46,952 bases of DNA from Chloroflexota bacterium (GTDB lineage: Bacteria > Chloroflexota > Chloroflexia > Chloroflexales > Roseiflexaceae): NCBI GenBank assembly GCA_013388755.1, contig JACAEQ010000042.1, forward strand, positions 1-46,952. Reading direction: 5' to 3'. The translations under genes were made by a program, and so were the position numbers. How positions within the stretch are numbered: position 1 is the first letter of the stretch; every line of letters begins with the position of its first letter. Below, piece after piece: positions 3,751 to 11,945 of this stretch. The notes under the pieces were generated by a model. The model did not search any database. It was given only the letters and a program-made list of their open reading frames with translations, and was not told the DNA's origin.

Positions 3751-6700
3751 ATGCCGCCACAGATTGTCGCGACCAGCGGCGCACAGGCAGGCAAGAGCTT
3801 TCCACTCGGTGATGCGCCTATCACATTCGGGCGTAACCCCGACAATACCGTCGTCATCGCCAGCGCGCGAGCGTCACGCCGCCACGCCGAGATCCGCCGT
3901 GAGGGCGGTGATTATGTGCTCTACGACCTGGGCAGCGCCAACGGGACGGTGGTCAACGGCCAGCGGCTTGCGGCGCCACACCGCCTGAAAACTGGCGACA
4001 TCATCGAGGTGGGGGATGAGACGTTCCGCTTCGAACAACCACAGCCGGCCCTCGATGCGACGCTGGTTGCTGCGCCAGGACCGATCAGTGCACCACCAAC
4101 GACACCAGCCACGGCCACTCCCCCACCTGCGCAGCCACCGCAGGGATTCCAGCTCCCGCCGTCGCAGCCCCCGCCTGCGCAGCCACCGCAGGGATTCCAG
4201 CTCCCGCCGTCGCAGCCCCCGCCTGCGCAGCCACCGCAGGGATTCCAGCTCCCGCCGTCGCAGCCCCCGCCTGCCCGACCGCAGTACCAGCCGCCGCCTG
4301 TCCCACTGCCTGATGTGCAACCCGCTCGCAAAGGCGGCATGCCGCGCTGGCTCATCCCGGTTGCACTGGTGGCTGTCGTGCTGGTTGCGGCATGCATCGG
4401 CGGTGCCGTTGTGGTCACGCGCAGTGTCGGCGGGCTCTTCAGCGACCAGGTAACCACCGAGAGCGCGACGGCCCGTCCTACCGAGCAGACTGCCGCCGGT
4501 AGCACCACCGTCCCGGTGCCGACCCGCACGCCCGCCCAGGCTGCCGGCGATAGGGCCGACTGGACGATCCTGGTCTACCTCGACGGTGACAACAACCTGG
4601 AACAGGACGCCGTCGGCGACTTCAACGAAATGGAACTGGTCGGGTCCACGGACCAGGTGAAGATCGTCGTTTTGCTCGATCGCATCCGCCAGAACGGCCC
4701 GCAGGACGATGCCTCCAATGGCGACTGGGAAACTGCCAGACGGTTTCTGGTCACCCGGGATGACGACGAGGATGAGATTCGAGCCCAGGAGATTGACGAC
4801 CTGGGTGAAGTCAACATGGGCGATCCGCAGACGCTGGTTGATTTCGCCGTCTGGGGCATGCAGACCTACCCTGCCGAGCGATACGCGCTTATTCTCTGGG
4901 ATCATGGTTCATCCTGGGCCGGTATCGCCTTCGATGAAACCGACGGCGAGGATGGCATCAACATGCCGGAACTCGATGCAGCACTGCGTACCATCAAACA
5001 GCAGACGGGAGAGCAGATCGACCTGATCGGCTTCGATGCCTGCCTGATGGCGCAGATTGACGTGCTGCAGACCGTCGCACCCTATGCAGATGTGATGGTT
5101 GCGTCCGCCGAGCTCGAACCCAATGAAGGCTGGGCCTGGGATCTCTGGTTACGTCGCCTGGTGGACGACCCGCAACAGGATGCCGCCAGCGTCGCCGAAA
5201 TAATCGTAGATACCTACCGCGAGTTCTATGAGGCGGGCGATGACCCGACCGTCACACTTTCGGCATTCGACCTGACGCGATCAGACGACATCCTGCAGAA
5301 ACTGAATGCTCTGTCGGATGCCATGCTGGCCGGCATGGGCGACTCATACACGGCGATTGCCGAAGCGCGATCGTATGTTGATGCCTACAGCCAGCCGCGA
5401 CCGGAGGAGTTCAGCGCGGTGGATCTGGGGCATTTTGCCCGGCTGGTGGTCGAGCGCGGCGCACGTCCACCTGTGGCTGAACCGGCGCGAGCCATGAACG
5501 AAGCACTGGCGCAGGCGCGAATTGCCGAGTGGAACGGCGGGTTCCACAACAACTCCACCGGTATGTCAATCTTCTTCCCGCAGTACGCCCAGTTCTACCC
5601 TGAAATCTATGGCCAGGCATCACCTTTACCACAGCAGACCTCGTGGGGTGATTTTCTTGCCGCCTTTCACACGGCCAACACCGGCCTGCAGGCTGCCGCA
5701 GAGATCACTGATCTCCAGCTCTCCAGCACGACCGTCAGCGTGAACAGCCCGATCAATGTCGAAGGCACGGTTTCCGGCAACAACATTGCCTATGTCTTCT
5801 TCTTCGCTGGCATTCCCAACCGTGACCGTAGCGGCGTACTGCTGACCAGCATCGACTTCATGTATCCTCCGGGTAGCACGCCCGGCAGCAGCATTCCACC
5901 CTGGACTGGAACACGGACCACGCTCAGGATTCCATATGACGGCACCCAGTGGGGATTGACCAACGGCCAGGATACCATTCCGGTTCTGCTCGGGCCGGCC
6001 AAGTACGGCACGGCACTCTACGGCGTCGAGGGGATCTATACGCGCCAGCCCTCGAATGAGCAGATCGCGGCAGCGCTCGTGTTTACGGTCGAAAGCGGCG
6101 CGCCACAACTTGTGACGATCTACGGCTTCCCGAAAAACCAGAAGCAGGAATCCCAACCCTTCGAAATCTCACCGACGCCTGGCGATACCTTCACTGCCAT
6201 GATCCGCACCTACACCGTGAAGGGCGACCGCCTCGAACCTGGCTTTGTCGAGGGCGACACGCTCACAATCGGCAATCAGTCGCTTGCCGTACAGCGCATC
6301 CCGGTCGCAAGCGGCGACTATGTGACCGGCTTTCTCGTGCGCGATATCGCCGGTCGCTTCAGCTACCAGTACGAGGATATCACGATCGATAACTCCGGCG
6401 CGGGCGCCAATGTCCCACCGCCTGCGCAGACATCGCCCGGCGCCCAGGCCGGTTACCAGTCGTACGACAACCAGGGGCTCGGGTTTTCGATCGAATATCC
6501 TGACGACTGGGAAACCTTCGATACCGGCAACGATCAGATCTACTTCTACGATCCGGCGCAGAATGGTAATGTCTTCGTCAGTGTTGATGTCTACAACACT
6601 AGCCTGCCGCCGGCGCAGGCCAACCAGGCACTGCTCAGACAGTTCCTCGAGTCGTTGAGCCAGCAGCAAGGCTTTCAGCAAGCGAGCGGCGACCCGATCG

Positions 6701-6900
6701 TCATCGGCGGCGAGACAGGGCCGTCGGCACAATATACGTTCACCGACCAGAACGGCGTACCCGTCACTGGTCTCGTTGTCGCCGTAACCAGCCCGCGAAC
6801 CGGCCTGAGTTACCTGGTGTCATTGCAGGCGCCATCCGCCGAGTTTGACCAGCACGCTGACAAACTGGGCACGATCGCCGACTCGATGCAAATCGAGTAG
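3751..6900 (+). CDS. FHA domain-TM-C11 (clostripain) peptidase protein
   Basis: A 1049-residue membrane protein. The FHA phosphothreonine-binding domain fills residues 15-90 (GRN 27-29, SRRH 42-45, NGT 64-66). A Pro/Gln-rich linker with three identical 16-residue repeats follows (about 126-173), then one transmembrane helix (200-222). A clostripain-type C11 peptidase domain starts near 270; its catalytic pair is visible as WDHG (His385) and FDACLM (Cys431). Residues 650-900 are beta-rich and unassigned, and the last 145 carry a PsbP/DUF-like YPDDW domain. The ATG at 3751 has an excellent GGAGG site. Expected topology is FHA inside and protease outside. A terminator-like hairpin separates it from the kinase gene downstream, its probable partner. 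The C11 and FHA calls are firm; the signalling role is inference. Confidence 0.9.
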   Translation: MPPQIVATSGAQAGKSFPLGDAPITFGRNPDNTVVIASARASRRHAEIRREGGDYVLYDLGSANGTVVNGQRLAAPHRLKTGDIIEVGDETFRFEQPQPALDATLVAAPGPISAPPTTPATATPPPAQPPQGFQLPPSQPPPAQPPQGFQLPPSQPPPAQPPQGFQLPPSQPPPARPQYQPPPVPLPDVQPARKGGMPRWLIPVALVAVVLVAACIGGAVVVTRSVGGLFSDQVTTESATARPTEQTAAGSTTVPVPTRTPAQAAGDRADWTILVYLDGDNNLEQDAVGDFNEMELVGSTDQVKIVVLLDRIRQNGPQDDASNGDWETARRFLVTRDDDEDEIRAQEIDDLGEVNMGDPQTLVDFAVWGMQTYPAERYALILWDHGSSWAGIAFDETDGEDGINMPELDAALRTIKQQTGEQIDLIGFDACLMAQIDVLQTVAPYADVMVASAELEPNEGWAWDLWLRRLVDDPQQDAASVAEIIVDTYREFYEAGDDPTVTLSAFDLTRSDDILQKLNALSDAMLAGMGDSYTAIAEARSYVDAYSQPRPEEFSAVDLGHFARLVVERGARPPVAEPARAMNEALAQARIAEWNGGFHNNSTGMSIFFPQYAQFYPEIYGQASPLPQQTSWGDFLAAFHTANTGLQAAAEITDLQLSSTTVSVNSPINVEGTVSGNNIAYVFFFAGIPNRDRSGVLLTSIDFMYPPGSTPGSSIPPWTGTRTTLRIPYDGTQWGLTNGQDTIPVLLGPAKYGTALYGVEGIYTRQPSNEQIAAALVFTVESGAPQLVTIYGFPKNQKQESQPFEISPTPGDTFTAMIRTYTVKGDRLEPGFVEGDTLTIGNQSLAVQRIPVASGDYVTGFLVRDIAGRFSYQYEDITIDNSGAGANVPPPAQTSPGAQAGYQSYDNQGLGFSIEYPDDWETFDTGNDQIYFYDPAQNGNVFVSVDVYNTSLPPAQANQALLRQFLESLSQQQGFQQASGDPIVIGGETGPSAQYTFTDQNGVPVTGLVVAVTSPRTGLSYLVSLQAPSAEFDQHADKLGTIADSMQIE
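4126..4269 (+). repeat. Three identical 48-bp tandem repeats in the FHA-peptidase linker
   Basis: Three contiguous identical copies (4126-4173, 4174-4221, 4222-4269) encode PAQPPQGFQLPPSQPP. Perfect identity, including silent positions, points to recent expansion by slippage or recombination. The reading frame is kept because 48 is a multiple of three. Confidence 0.95.
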
Positions 6901-6910
6901 GCCGGCATGG

Positions 6911-6954
6911 CCGGGGAGATGGGCGATACCCTCGCGCGGTTACCATCTCCCCGG
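6911..6954 (+). terminator. Hairpin after the FHA-peptidase gene
   Basis: A perfect 12-bp stem, CCGGGGAGATGG (6911-6922) with CCATCTCCCCGG (6943-6954), and a 20-base loop. It begins 10 bases after the stop codon. No T-run follows, so it may be a factor-dependent terminator or an mRNA 3' stabiliser. Confidence 0.55.
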
Positions 6955-6998
6955 TGATATACCCGTTTCTTCATCGCGCCCGTCACGGTACAATTGGC

Positions 6999-9251
6999 AT
7001 GAGCGCCGTCGTATCAGCAACACCCATGCTCGCGCCAGATACTCTCCTGCAACATCGTTACCGCATCGTGCGCCAGATCGGCAAGGGCGGCATGGGCGCC
7101 GTCTACGAAGCAATCGATCAGCGGCTGGGCAATCGGGTCGCACTCAAGCAAACGCTGACCACCAGTGACCAGATGGCGCGTTCACTCGAACGCGAGGCGC
7201 GCCTGCTCGCCGCATTGCGCCATGCCTCACTGCCGAAAGTCACCGACCATTTTGTTGACGGCAGCGGCCAGTATCTGGTGATGGAGTTCATCGCCGGCGA
7301 AGACCTCGACACCCTGCTCACCCGGCGCAAGCGGGCATTCGAGGTGGAGAACGTGCTTGCCTGGGCCGATCAACTGCTCCGGGTCCTGGAATACCTGCAC
7401 CGGCAACACCCACCGGTGCTCCATCGCGACATCAAGCCGCAAAACCTCAAACTGACGGCGGATGGTGAGGTGGTACTCCTCGATTTTGGCCTGGCGAAGG
7501 GAATCGCAACCTCGCATACTCACGCCAACGAGAGCATTTTCGGTTACACGCCGCACTATGCGCCGCTAGAGCAGATTGACAACAGCGGCACCGAACCACG
7601 CAGTGATCTGTATAGCCTGGCTGCGACCCTCTACCACCTGGTCACCGGCGTCCAGCCACCCGACGCGCTGACGCGCGCCACGGCCATACTGCGCCAGTTA
7701 CCCGATCCCCTGATTCCGCCGGCAGCGCTCAACCCGGTGGTACCACCGGCTGTCGACCGGCTCGTGATGCAGGCGATGGCACTGAATATTGATGAGCGTC
7801 CATCGAGCGCGGCATCAATGCGCGCGGATCTCGAACAGGCGGGCCAGAGCGCCATGCCGGCCAACCGGGAGGAATCGCTCCAACGCCAGCGATTGCACGA
7901 AGCAGAGACCATCGCCGCCGATGGGGCCGCACCCTGCGCCGTGTGGCGCGATCATGGCAACGAGCATCGGCAATCGAACGGCACGCCTGCTCCGTCGGCC
8001 CATACCGCGCCATACAACGAGTCGTCTGCGACACAATGCGCCGGGGAGGATGTGGCACGTACGGCCCTGGCAAAGGTGCGCGAGGTCATGCTGCAGATCG
8101 TCACAGCCGTCACTGCCGCAGTGCCATCGCCATGGCGACGGTATGCCATTCCGGCAGCCCTTATCGCCCCGGTGGTCGTGATCGCGCTTGGAGTAGCACT
8201 GGCCGGCCGCACACCGGCCCGGCCCGAGACAGCCCTGTCGGCAGTCACGGCTGGCCATGCCGTTACTCCGGTCACGCAGGCCGCACCGACTATCACCGTC
8301 CGGGCAATGCCTTCGCCCCGGCCTCCCATCGCCACGCAGATCACCGCCAGCACGCCCGTCGCAACCACACTCTCACCCACCGAGGTCTATACCGCGACCC
8401 TGCCGATTGCCTTGACCGTGCAGGGTACCGATCTCGATCGGGGGCGCACCTTTGCACTGGTGGCTGACGATCACACCATCGCCCTCCAGCGTGAAAGCGC
8501 CACCGGTAACCGGGCGACGTTACGCCTGGCGCGCATAACGTTCCCGATCCAGGGTGAGCTTACGCTGACACTGGCCATTGACGGTGTACCACAGCCGGAG
8601 ATCAGAGTCACACTGCGCGATTTCCTGGCACAGAAGCTGGTACAGGGGGTACGACCCGAGTATGTCTTCACCGACCGGGTCGGCATTGACGAGCTGGGTG
8701 CCTATACCAGCCTGCGCATGCTTCCGGACGCCACGAGCGATCGCTTCGCTGTACTCCGCAACGGCGACGAAGTCGAACTCCTGCGGGTGGATACGCCAGA
8801 ATGGTACCAGGTGCGCATCCGGCGTAGCGTGGCTGCCATGCATATCGGGGCGATCGGCTGGATCGAACGCTGGCTGATTGACAGCGAGGGAGCGCCATCA
8901 CCACCACAACCCGTCTTCATCGGTCGCCTGGGAGCAACGGCAACTGATGCCGCCATCCGCTGCGGCACGGAGTTTCGCTCAAGTATCTATGGAAGCGTGG
9001 AAGACAAAGCAGGGAACGGTATCGCTGGCGCAACTATCACAGTGACGAGCGCCGACGGCCGCAACCGTTTCAGTACCACGACACAGCGCAACGGAACCTA
9101 CGTCATCCCTGGCCTGGGCTGCACCAACTGGATCGTGCGACTGGTTGCAGCGCCCGGCATTCCCGAAGTGCAGGCCAACACCATTACGGTGACAAACCTG
9201 AACGGCGGCAAATATACCGCCGCCGAGGTTCGCTTTCGCCAGGCGCCGTGA
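6999..9251 (+). CDS. Transmembrane serine/threonine protein kinase with SH3b ectodomain
   Basis: A 750-residue Hanks-type kinase. From the chosen ATG the kinase domain spans about 15-280: GKGGMGAVYEA (28-38), VALK (Lys50), HRDIKPQNL (142-150) and DFG (162-164). A low-complexity juxtamembrane region follows, with a single helix near 381-402. The external part contains an SH3b-like fold (about 565-630, SLRMLPDATSDRFAVLRNGD) and a carboxypeptidase-regulatory/Cna-like beta domain (about 660-750, IYGSVEDKAGNGIAGATITV). SH3b domains often bind cell wall, so it may sense the envelope. Start options are GTG 6954 (inside the preceding hairpin, rejected), ATG 6999 and ATG 7026; a TACAAT at 6989-6994 makes 7026 also possible. 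Stop is 2 bases from the convergent lipoprotein gene. Confidence 0.9.
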   Translation: MSAVVSATPMLAPDTLLQHRYRIVRQIGKGGMGAVYEAIDQRLGNRVALKQTLTTSDQMARSLEREARLLAALRHASLPKVTDHFVDGSGQYLVMEFIAGEDLDTLLTRRKRAFEVENVLAWADQLLRVLEYLHRQHPPVLHRDIKPQNLKLTADGEVVLLDFGLAKGIATSHTHANESIFGYTPHYAPLEQIDNSGTEPRSDLYSLAATLYHLVTGVQPPDALTRATAILRQLPDPLIPPAALNPVVPPAVDRLVMQAMALNIDERPSSAASMRADLEQAGQSAMPANREESLQRQRLHEAETIAADGAAPCAVWRDHGNEHRQSNGTPAPSAHTAPYNESSATQCAGEDVARTALAKVREVMLQIVTAVTAAVPSPWRRYAIPAALIAPVVVIALGVALAGRTPARPETALSAVTAGHAVTPVTQAAPTITVRAMPSPRPPIATQITASTPVATTLSPTEVYTATLPIALTVQGTDLDRGRTFALVADDHTIALQRESATGNRATLRLARITFPIQGELTLTLAIDGVPQPEIRVTLRDFLAQKLVQGVRPEYVFTDRVGIDELGAYTSLRMLPDATSDRFAVLRNGDEVELLRVDTPEWYQVRIRRSVAAMHIGAIGWIERWLIDSEGAPSPPQPVFIGRLGATATDAAIRCGTEFRSSIYGSVEDKAGNGIAGATITVTSADGRNRFSTTTQRNGTYVIPGLGCTNWIVRLVAAPGIPEVQANTITVTNLNGGKYTAAEVRFRQAP

Positions 9252-9253
9252 CA

Positions 9254-9898
9254 TCACGGCGTCGCCGCCTCCACCCGCCGCCGCATTTCACGCACATCGA
9301 TCGGCGCCAGCGACTCGGCCACGCGCAGCAGGTCCTCACGCGTACAGCCCAACCCGAACACAAAGAGCGTTCCCGGTGCGCCATCATCAATGACGATCAA
9401 TGTCTGATCGCCCTGGTCGACAATGCGTGCGCCGCGCGCACCGAGACGGATACGCTCGATCGTTCCACTCAGACTGAATGGCTCGACTGCTCCGCCCCCG
9501 ATGACCAGCTTTTTTGCACCACTGTTGAACGTCACGAGATAGAATCCCACGCCACCATCGCCAACCTCGCCGTCGCGCGCAATGCGCGACTCCGATGGCG
9601 CGAGGGCCATGCCGTCCGGCAGAAACGCCGGCCATTGATAGGCGAACAACGCCACATCACCATTCTCCAGCGACGCCTGCCCGGCAGGTTGTGCCGGCGG
9701 CTGCGCCAGCACGGGCGCCGGGGATGGGGTGGGCATTGTGGAAGGCACGGCCATCACCTCCGGCGGCATGGCGGCTATCGTCGGCGATGGCGATAGCGTG
9801 ACGGCCCGCTCCATTGATGCGCCACAGGCAACGGTCGTGAGCAATGCAGCGATCACAGCGACGACCGGCAATAACGAGCGTCTGCAGTTTCTTGACAT
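9254..9898 (-). CDS. Putative lipoprotein, unknown function
   Basis: A 214-residue protein with a lipoprotein-type signal: positively charged start, hydrophobic stretch PVVAVIAALLTTVAC and candidate lipidated Cys25 (the -3 residue is Thr, so the lipobox is imperfect). A Ser/Pro/Ala-rich linker (residues 33-75) precedes a globular part containing FLPDGMALAPSESRI and a VGFYLVTFNSGAKKLVIGGG segment. This vaguely resembles the sensor part of anti-sigma or DUF4367-like proteins, but no family is assigned. The ATG at 9898 has AAGGAT directly before it. It is convergent with the kinase gene and divergent from selB, so a link with the FHA/kinase block is possible but unproven. Confidence 0.75.
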   Translation of the reverse strand: MSRNCRRSLLPVVAVIAALLTTVACGASMERAVTLSPSPTIAAMPPEVMAVPSTMPTPSPAPVLAQPPAQPAGQASLENGDVALFAYQWPAFLPDGMALAPSESRIARDGEVGDGGVGFYLVTFNSGAKKLVIGGGAVEPFSLSGTIERIRLGARGARIVDQGDQTLIVIDDGAPGTLFVFGLGCTREDLLRVAESLAPIDVREMRRRVEAATP

Positions 9899-9902
9899 AT
9901 CC

Positions 9903-9931
9903 TTGCCGCGACGTGATGAGCATGGTACAAT
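9903..9931 (+). promoter_or_regulatory. selB promoter, extended -10
   Basis: TTGCCG (9903-9908), 17-base spacer, TACAAT (9926-9931) preceded by TGG (9923-9925). The resulting leader to the selB ATG would be close to 90 bases. It overlaps the 5' region of the divergent lipoprotein gene. Confidence 0.55.
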
Positions 9932-10025
9932 GCCTCCAATTCTACCCGATCTCGCCCGATCAGTGGGATGTTTGATCATCGTTCAGGCAGAGCGATCGTC
10001 GCGCCCGCCCGCTACCCCGGCATCC

Positions 10026-11945
10026 ATGTACGTCATCGGAACCGCTGGCCACGTTGACCATGGAAAATCAACGCTCGTCAAGGCTCTCACCGGAATCGAT
10101 CCTGACCGCCTGGAAGAAGAGCAGCGGCGAGAGATGACGATCGATCTGGGATTTGCCTGGCTCAGGCTACCAGGCGGCCGGCAGATCAGTATTATTGATG
10201 TTCCCGGGCACGAGCGCTTCATCAAGAATATGCTGGCAGGCATCGGCGGCATTGATGCAGCGTTGCTGGTCATTGCCGCCGACGAGTCGGTGATGCCACA
10301 GACGATCGAGCACCTGGCCATTCTCGACCTGCTCGAGGTCACTCACGGGTTGGTGGCGCTAACCAAGATCGATCTGGTTGATGAGGAATGGCTGGCGCTG
10401 GTGCGCGACGAGGTGCGCGATCGCTTGCGCGGCACCAGTTTTGCCACGGCGCCGATCGTGGCCGTGTCGGCGCGTACCGGGCAGGGGATTGACGACTTGC
10501 TACGCACCCTTGACACGACGCTTGATCATGTGCCTTCACGCGCGGATGCGCGCGGCAGGGCGCGTCTCTCGATCGATCGTTCATTCGCCATCAGCGGTTT
10601 TGGTACGGTGGTGACCGGCACACTCAGCGACGGCCCGCTGCGCGTGGGTGATGAGGTCGAGATCCTGCCACATGGGATGCGTGCACGGGTGCGCGGGCTG
10701 CAAACGCACCAGACCAGGGTTGACGAAGCGCGCCCGGGATCGCGAGTCGCCGTCAATCTTGCAGGCGTGGCCCACCAGGCGATCCGGCGTGGCGACGCAC
10801 TGGTGATCCCCGGGTACATCCAACCAACAACAGTGATCGACGCACGCCTGCGCGTCGTCGCCAGCGCGCCGCACGTGATTGAACAGAATGATCGGCTTGA
10901 GCTGTTCGTGGGCGCGGCCGAAACCCCATGCCGGGTGACACTGCTCGACTGCGAGAAACTGGCGCCTGGCGAGATGGGCTGGGTGCAACTCCGCCTCGAC
11001 CGGCCGGTTGTCACACTGCGCGGCGACCGCTATATTCTGCGCCAGCCGTCGCCAGGGTGCACCATTGGCGGAGGGCGCGTCATGGATGCGCATCCTGCGC
11101 GCCATCGCCGCTTCCGGCCAGAGGTTATCAGGATGCTCGAGGCGCTGGCGCGTGGCACGCCTGCCGATCTGGTGCAGATGGCGCTGGCGGACGACATGCC
11201 GCATCCCTGGTCGGGTATTGTGCAAACCAGTGGCCTGAACGACTCCCTGGCGCGTGAAGGGCTTGCAGCATTGCTTGAGACGCAACAGGCACTCGTTCTT
11301 GCGTTCCGCCAGCCAGGCACGTTTCATCCGGGCCTCGACCCTGCAAAGTCGGGCGATGCCGAAGCGCCCGAGCCGGGAACGCTCATCTCTGGTACCGGCT
11401 GGCGCATGCTACGCGAGCGCATGGTGGCAGTGTTGCGCCAGTACCACGCCCGTTATCCGCTGCGCCGCGGCATGCCGCGTGAGGAACTGCGCAGCAGGTT
11501 GAACCTTGCTAATGAGGCGCTCGACGATGTGCTGGCCTATGCAAGCACACATGGCGATGTCCAGAGTGAGGGGGCATTTGTTCGCCTGCCGGAGCATGAG
11601 GCGCGACCAACCGCCGAACAGCAGCGCCAGATACAGCAGGCGCTCGATCTCCTGCGCACAGCGCCCTATGGCCCGCCTGCGCCTGACCTCGACACCGAAC
11701 TGCTCGGCTGGCTGGTGGAGCGTGGCGTTGTGACGCGCGTCACGCCCGACGTCGTCTTCTTGAATAGTGCCTACGAGGAAATGGTGAGCTGGGTATGTGA
11801 TCAGATCCGCGACGGCGGAAGCGTGACCGTGGCCCGGTTCCGCGACCGTTTTGGCAACAGCCGGAAGTATGCGCTGGCATTGCTCGAGCACCTTGATGAG
11901 CGGCGCATTACGCGACGCAGCGGCGATGTACGCATTCGTTACTGA
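10026..11945 (+). CDS. selB: Selenocysteine-specific elongation factor SelB
   Basis: A 639-residue translational GTPase that in known systems brings Sec-tRNA to recoded UGA codons. The GTPase domain at the N-terminus has GHVDHGKST (8-16), the switch threonine in [28 protein letters not shown] and VSAR. EF-Tu-like domains II and III follow. The C-terminal 250 residues have the winged-helix character that contacts the SECIS RNA. The ATG at 10026 starts right at the conserved [14 protein letters not shown]; upstream in-frame codons are not conserved-looking. No selA, selD, selC or in-frame UGA gene is visible here, so use of selenocysteine by this organism cannot be confirmed from the window. 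Two small coupled genes follow 27 bases later. Confidence 0.92.

Follow-up and report, generated by a model that had tools for sequence, protein, structure and literature searches.

An FHA domain joined through a membrane helix to a C11 peptidase is conserved in the Chloroflexales and may place an extracytoplasmic protease under phosphothreonine control

The gene at 3751..6900 of the window (the whole stretch of 46,952 nucleotides that was analysed; the features given for this gene and for the neighbouring kinase lie on its + strand) starts with ATG at 3751, ends with a stop codon at 6898-6900 and encodes a protein of 1049 residues plus stop, with known orthologues. From the N- to the C-terminus, the protein comprises an FHA domain, a proline-rich linker, one transmembrane (TM) helix, a Peptidase_C11 domain, an all-beta region and a PsbP/Mog1-like domain. 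The residues that an FHA domain requires to bind phosphothreonine (pThr) and the catalytic His/Cys dyad of the peptidase are both conserved. The arrangement is best explained as a membrane-anchored extracytoplasmic C11 cysteine peptidase with a cytoplasmic phosphothreonine switch, a reading that we prefer tentatively and place somewhat below an even chance; that a phosphothreonine signal would control the protease is suggested by the architecture and is helped by a conserved candidate phosphorylation site, Thr104. The FHA-TM-clostripain order had been put forward in the original prediction and is confirmed here by Pfam domains scoring above curated cutoffs together with a single hydrophobic segment. 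Among the checks proposed with the prediction were a structural model and a search for proteins that combine FHA and C11 domains, and both agree with it. An AlphaFold2 model, based on 32 aligned locus proteins, is mostly well determined in the C11 region and disordered in the linker, and its C11 part superposes on clostripain (9cip_B) with a Z score of 35.9 and an rmsd of 3.2 over 357 residues. The search yielded 27 FHA-TM-C11 proteins from two families of the order (82 genomes searched, loci translated).

Full-length relatives from Roseiflexus share 74-77% identity with the window protein, and those from the second family, which we take to be the Chloroflexaceae, about 44-54%. Because the whole architecture is repeated in 27 proteins from many genera at 44-77% identity, a chance fusion can be excluded. 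Two proteins were left out of these counts: L070, whose FHA label is an artefact of training the HMM on its own sequence, and L177, a fragment at a contig end. When samples of 61 genomes from the class and 101 from the phylum were searched with the family profile PF03415, C11 proteins of any kind proved rare outside the order, and none carried an FHA domain in the loci read. Beyond the phylum, a pattern scan of genome contigs returned one archaeal C11 match, with the peptidase only, and is a scan from which absence elsewhere is not inferable. The source genome itself contains 25 FHA matches, more than 20 kinase matches and one C11 protein. No NCBIfam model scores above its cutoff for the 1049-residue protein.

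The C11 (clostripain) domain, including its C-terminal part, occupies residues 264-645 (4540..5685), with PF03415 matching at residues 275-568 (173.4 bits versus a cutoff of 25.8, E 1e-50). The motifs DHG (384-386) and GFDAC (427-431) identify His385 (4903..4905) and Cys431 (encoded with Asp429 at 5035..5043) as the dyad. Both residues had been named in the original prediction, for which their replacement in close homologues would have been telling; they are invariant in 27/27 proteins. Asp429 is likewise invariant and is predicted to be the S1 residue for Arg or Lys, as Asp177, also two residues before the cysteine, is in PmC11 (PMC4850288), which strongly suggests a P1 specificity for Arg/Lys. 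The clostripain equivalog model TIGR02806 scores well below its curated cutoff (51.7 versus 550 bits); judged by its sequence, the protein is a C11 family member by domain and not clostripain itself. The possibility that close relatives are catalytically dead was considered and rejected, since histidine and cysteine are kept in all 27 proteins and in those FHA-less close paralogues whose C11 domain is complete; the His/Cys motifs are missing only in distant C11-like proteins. As a separate observation, the Chloroflexales encode many large secreted C11-like proteins (L133-L149; G009, G014, G025, G034, G006 and others), several of them apparently without the His or Cys motif.

A feature that had escaped the original prediction is the absence of any basic residue between His385 and Arg413: the stretch of residues 386-412 that follows the catalytic histidine (4906..4986) contains no Lys or Arg. 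Clostripain (Arg181, Arg190), PmC11 (Lys147) and globupain (Lys137, Lys144), in contrast, become active by cutting themselves behind basic residues of the corresponding loop (PMC4850288, PMC10315481). In the 13 residues that follow the histidine, orthologues have 0 or 1 Lys/Arg, which is not conserved. As the alignments by sequence and by structure disagree on where the loop is shortened and whether part of it is deleted, our claim is limited to the missing conserved basic site, and self-activation by cleavage at Lys/Arg was not treated as a requirement for C11 membership. The lipoprotein clade that is sister to the FHA proteins (see below) also lacks a conserved basic site in this stretch, so that this absence either predates or is independent of the fusion to FHA. 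With no basic residue in the activation loop, it is plausible that an inner switch controls the enzyme in place of the canonical self-cleavage.

The single TM helix spans about residues 200-222 (4348..4416), within the one hydrophobic peak of the protein (residues 198-224), with Arg/Lys ahead of it and a stretch rich in Ser, Thr and Pro behind it. According to hydropathy-based assignment, the positive-inside pattern holds in 27/27 proteins, with a mean net charge of +2.7 on the inner side versus +0.4 on the outer. In a tree of the C11 domain (FastTree, midpoint-rooted), the FHA proteins form one clade, and its sister clade combines C11 and the same beta region with an N-terminal signal, in which the lipobox is clear in 8/9 members (e.g. 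LAAC, LSAC) and reads only VGGC in the ninth. The export of the C11 module in the sister clade and the charge pattern together support a cytoplasmic FHA domain and an outer peptidase. The original placement of the two domains thus gains support, an N-inside/C-outside (type II) topology being strongly implied, and nothing in the analysis puts both domains on the same side of the membrane. Given the midpoint rooting and the FastTree method, replacement of a lipoprotein signal by the FHA-TM module is only an inferred direction. Within the FHA clade, one subclade (L130, L170-L173) has no FHA domain and, where the N-terminus is complete, a TM anchor only; it keeps the catalytic His and Cys, Ser replaces the Asp before the catalytic His-Gly, and the genomes concerned also hold the FHA form. 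The FHA domain can therefore be lost and the peptidase can do without it, which counts against the preferred reading.

The FHA domain covers residues 24-88 (3820..4014; Pfam PF00498, 75.9 bits versus a cutoff of 20.7, E 3e-21), and the best sequence match of its core in the PDB is GarA. The five conserved residues Gly, Arg, Ser, His and Asn listed for FHA domains (PMC4238996) are present as Gly27, Arg28, Ser42, His45 and Asn64, and the pThr-pocket pattern GR...SR[RH]H...S.NGT is intact in 27/27 FHA-C11 proteins. The domain might nevertheless be non-canonical, that is, a phosphate-independent protein-binding part or merely a retained membrane anchor, as could be read from the additional match of the YscD-type FHA profile PF16697 and from the absence of the domain in the paralogue subclade just described; the invariant pocket and a PF00498 score well above that of PF16697 make this distinctly improbable.

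Past the FHA domain lies a cytoplasmic proline-rich linker (4042..4347) of low model confidence, whose length varies among orthologues. It includes Thr104 (4060..4062) in the motif DATLVA, also missed by the original prediction, which is the best candidate for a phosphoacceptor. A Thr followed by Leu, Val or Ile stands directly past the FHA core in 26/27 FHA-C11 proteins, in most cases with Asp or Glu at position -2 relative to it, in a linker that evolves fast and is otherwise variable in both length and sequence. The site is also found, as DAT[LV]L, in the five FHA-TM paralogues that were compared, whose outer regions are of other kinds (ZU5-like in two). Of the 32 linkers of these proteins (27 FHA-C11 proteins and 5 paralogues), 31 contain T[LVI], against a mean of 4.6 and a maximum of 12 after shuffling, and 26 contain [DE].T[LVI], against a mean of 0.13 and a maximum of 3. 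These counts are descriptive and not probabilities, since they disregard common descent and thereby overstate the independence of the proteins. The site was counted by pattern because the MAFFT alignment of the linkers misaligned Thr104, the spacing of which varies by a few residues. The FHA-Thr-TM module thus appears to have been shuffled among outer domains. Two FHA-linker-TM proteins with ZU5-like outer regions are encoded in the same genome as the window protein, at G000:C24:56631-57305 (L063:5264-7495, - strand) and G000:C85:44637-45059 (L064:6578-8554, + strand).

That the FHA-linker-Thr-TM module is combined with unrelated outer parts, ZU5-like ones among them, is what would be expected of a general anchor, and the nearest rival to the preferred reading is a scaffold or address tag without switching. 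The outer peptidase would then be constitutively active, and the FHA-TM part would place it at sites marked by phosphoproteins, such as kinase clusters or division sites. The absence of a canonical activation site fits a peptidase that is not a zymogen, but the conserved Thr104 is not explained by placement itself, unless it is also a localisation site; on balance, we regard this alternative as rather unlikely, if deserving of serious attention.

In the preferred reading of a phosphothreonine switch, Thr104 would be phosphorylated by a cellular kinase of the Hanks type, which need not be the neighbouring one, and the FHA domain would bind pThr104 in its own chain, or in another copy or partner. 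Binding of pThr in the own chain is known for proteins of the GarA/OdhI type. There is also precedent for FHA proteins that are phosphorylated and bound by kinases (PMC4238996). The binding may in turn alter clustering or the recruitment of partners, by which the outer peptidase would be switched or positioned. A narrower version, a one-protein inside-out switch in which pThr104 is read by the protein's own FHA domain and turns on the outer caspase-like peptidase, is doubtful. Three further points weigh against the preferred reading: it is not obvious how an allosteric signal would travel along the long flexible linker and the single helix; PmC11 is reported to be monomeric (PMC4850288), so that clustering need not activate; and the kinase neighbour is not conserved.

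This neighbour, a membrane Ser/Thr kinase, lies directly downstream (6996..9251; a GTG start at 6954 is also possible). The original prediction had pointed to it as a binding partner of the FHA domain, a suggestion that fares less well than the architecture. The window and four Roseiflexus loci have protease and kinase in the same order and on the same strand, as would be expected of a dedicated kinase-protease pair. Another Roseiflexus genome, G068, which is 99% complete, keeps the protease but has lost the kinase, and a search for the outer part of the kinase found no copy there; such a kinase occurs in 0/22 Chloroflexaceae loci within the fetched flanks; and in G007 the nearest homologue of the kinase's outer part lies ~1.6 Mb from the protease gene. 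Together with the many kinases and FHA domains of the source genome, this comparison makes the adjacent kinase a possible, though not a conserved, partner found at genus level; a dedicated pair is very improbable, and a dedicated operon as a general rule is ruled out by the loss in G068 and by the 22 Chloroflexaceae loci. A role in anti-phage defence was also considered and rejected, the C11 protein having no PADLOC match and the matches of the neighbouring kinase being to generic kinase domains only. Elsewhere in the window, a small gene without Pfam match at 9254-9979 (minus strand) is conserved beside the C11 and kinase genes in Roseiflexus, 9729-11945 encodes SelB (selenocysteine-specific elongation factor), and no tRNA gene was found in the window.

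The C-terminal outer parts were absent from the original prediction. The all-beta region (residues 648-892, 245 residues; 5692..6426), common to the lipoprotein C11 sister clade, is confidently all-beta when modelled alone (pLDDT 90.8), has no counterpart in the PDB at an E value of 0.001 or better and is present in 27/27 FHA-C11 proteins. The PsbP/Mog1-like domain (residues 898-1049; 6442..6897) is matched by PF01789 at residues 900-1047 (29.1 bits versus a cutoff of 23.5), superposes in the AlphaFold2 model on cyanobacterial PsbP (2xb3) with a Z score of 14.6 and is found in 16/27 proteins. These outer parts and the C11 domain might sense, or be processed by, extracytoplasmic events, with the FHA end passing the signal on to the cytoplasm. 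Compatible with such envelope sensing, Chloroflexaceae genes are followed by a histidine-kinase cluster protein within two genes in 16/20 loci with downstream sequence and by a MacB/FtsX-type permease as the next gene in 11/20 (L041-L060 being the loci with permease and/or histidine kinase downstream of the C11 gene); the downstream genes often overlap or lie within 40 bases, and a Pfam check of some of them identified three histidine kinases and one permease. Of the four histidine kinases checked for membrane segments, however, three have no predicted TM helix and one a single weak one, leaving direct contact unproven, and the dyad intact in 27/27 proteins argues for an effector enzyme. Outside-in signalling is judged improbable.

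Compared with the characterised members of family C11 (clan CD), clostripain, PmC11, iotapain and globupain, the window protein is alike in fold (Z 30-36 to full-length solved chains), in its dyad with the Asp two residues before the Cys and in secreted or extracytoplasmic use, but has the FHA-TM module where these enzymes have a secretion signal. It shares with FHA regulators of the GarA/OdhI and FhaB types the pThr-binding residues of the FHA core and a probable phosphoacceptor Thr outside the domain; GarA and OdhI, however, are soluble proteins with cytoplasmic enzymes as their targets, whereas in the window protein the Thr comes after the domain and the effector lies across the membrane. 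MupFHA of Mycobacterium ulcerans is likewise an FHA protein encoded near a membrane Ser/Thr kinase, PknQ (PMC4238996), in a system without a protease and with a measured interaction in place of the unconserved adjacency seen here. In the type VI secretion system of Agrobacterium, a pThr-FHA contact between TssL and Fha is reported to govern an envelope activity, though the FHA and membrane parts are separate proteins and the output is secretion, not proteolysis (PMC3953482). Prokaryotic metacaspases and orthocaspases (C14) similarly join a caspase-like domain to TM and regulatory domains, but belong to a different peptidase family, with no FHA architecture mentioned in that account (PMC3501461). 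A search of open-access full text found nothing on FHA combined with clostripain or peptidase C11, and one open-access paper on peptidase C11 and Chloroflexi, where a hypothetical C. aurantiacus protein is merely listed as clostripain-like. The earlier statement that no characterised protein has this role holds for the open-access papers searched, none of which describes the architecture; it is built from known kinds of domain.

The usual view of bacterial membrane Ser/Thr kinases is that they perceive external cues and respond within the cell. A conserved FHA-TM-protease would connect the two sides directly in the opposite direction, from the inside to the outside, and the recurrence of the FHA-Thr-TM module with different outer domains points to inside-out signalling as a general scheme in these bacteria. 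The proposal is testable, as fully sequenced Chloroflexales genomes carry the FHA-TM-protease. Its conservation extends over a group of photosynthetic bacteria, and the arrangement looks like one in which an internal signal may steer a protease on the cell surface.
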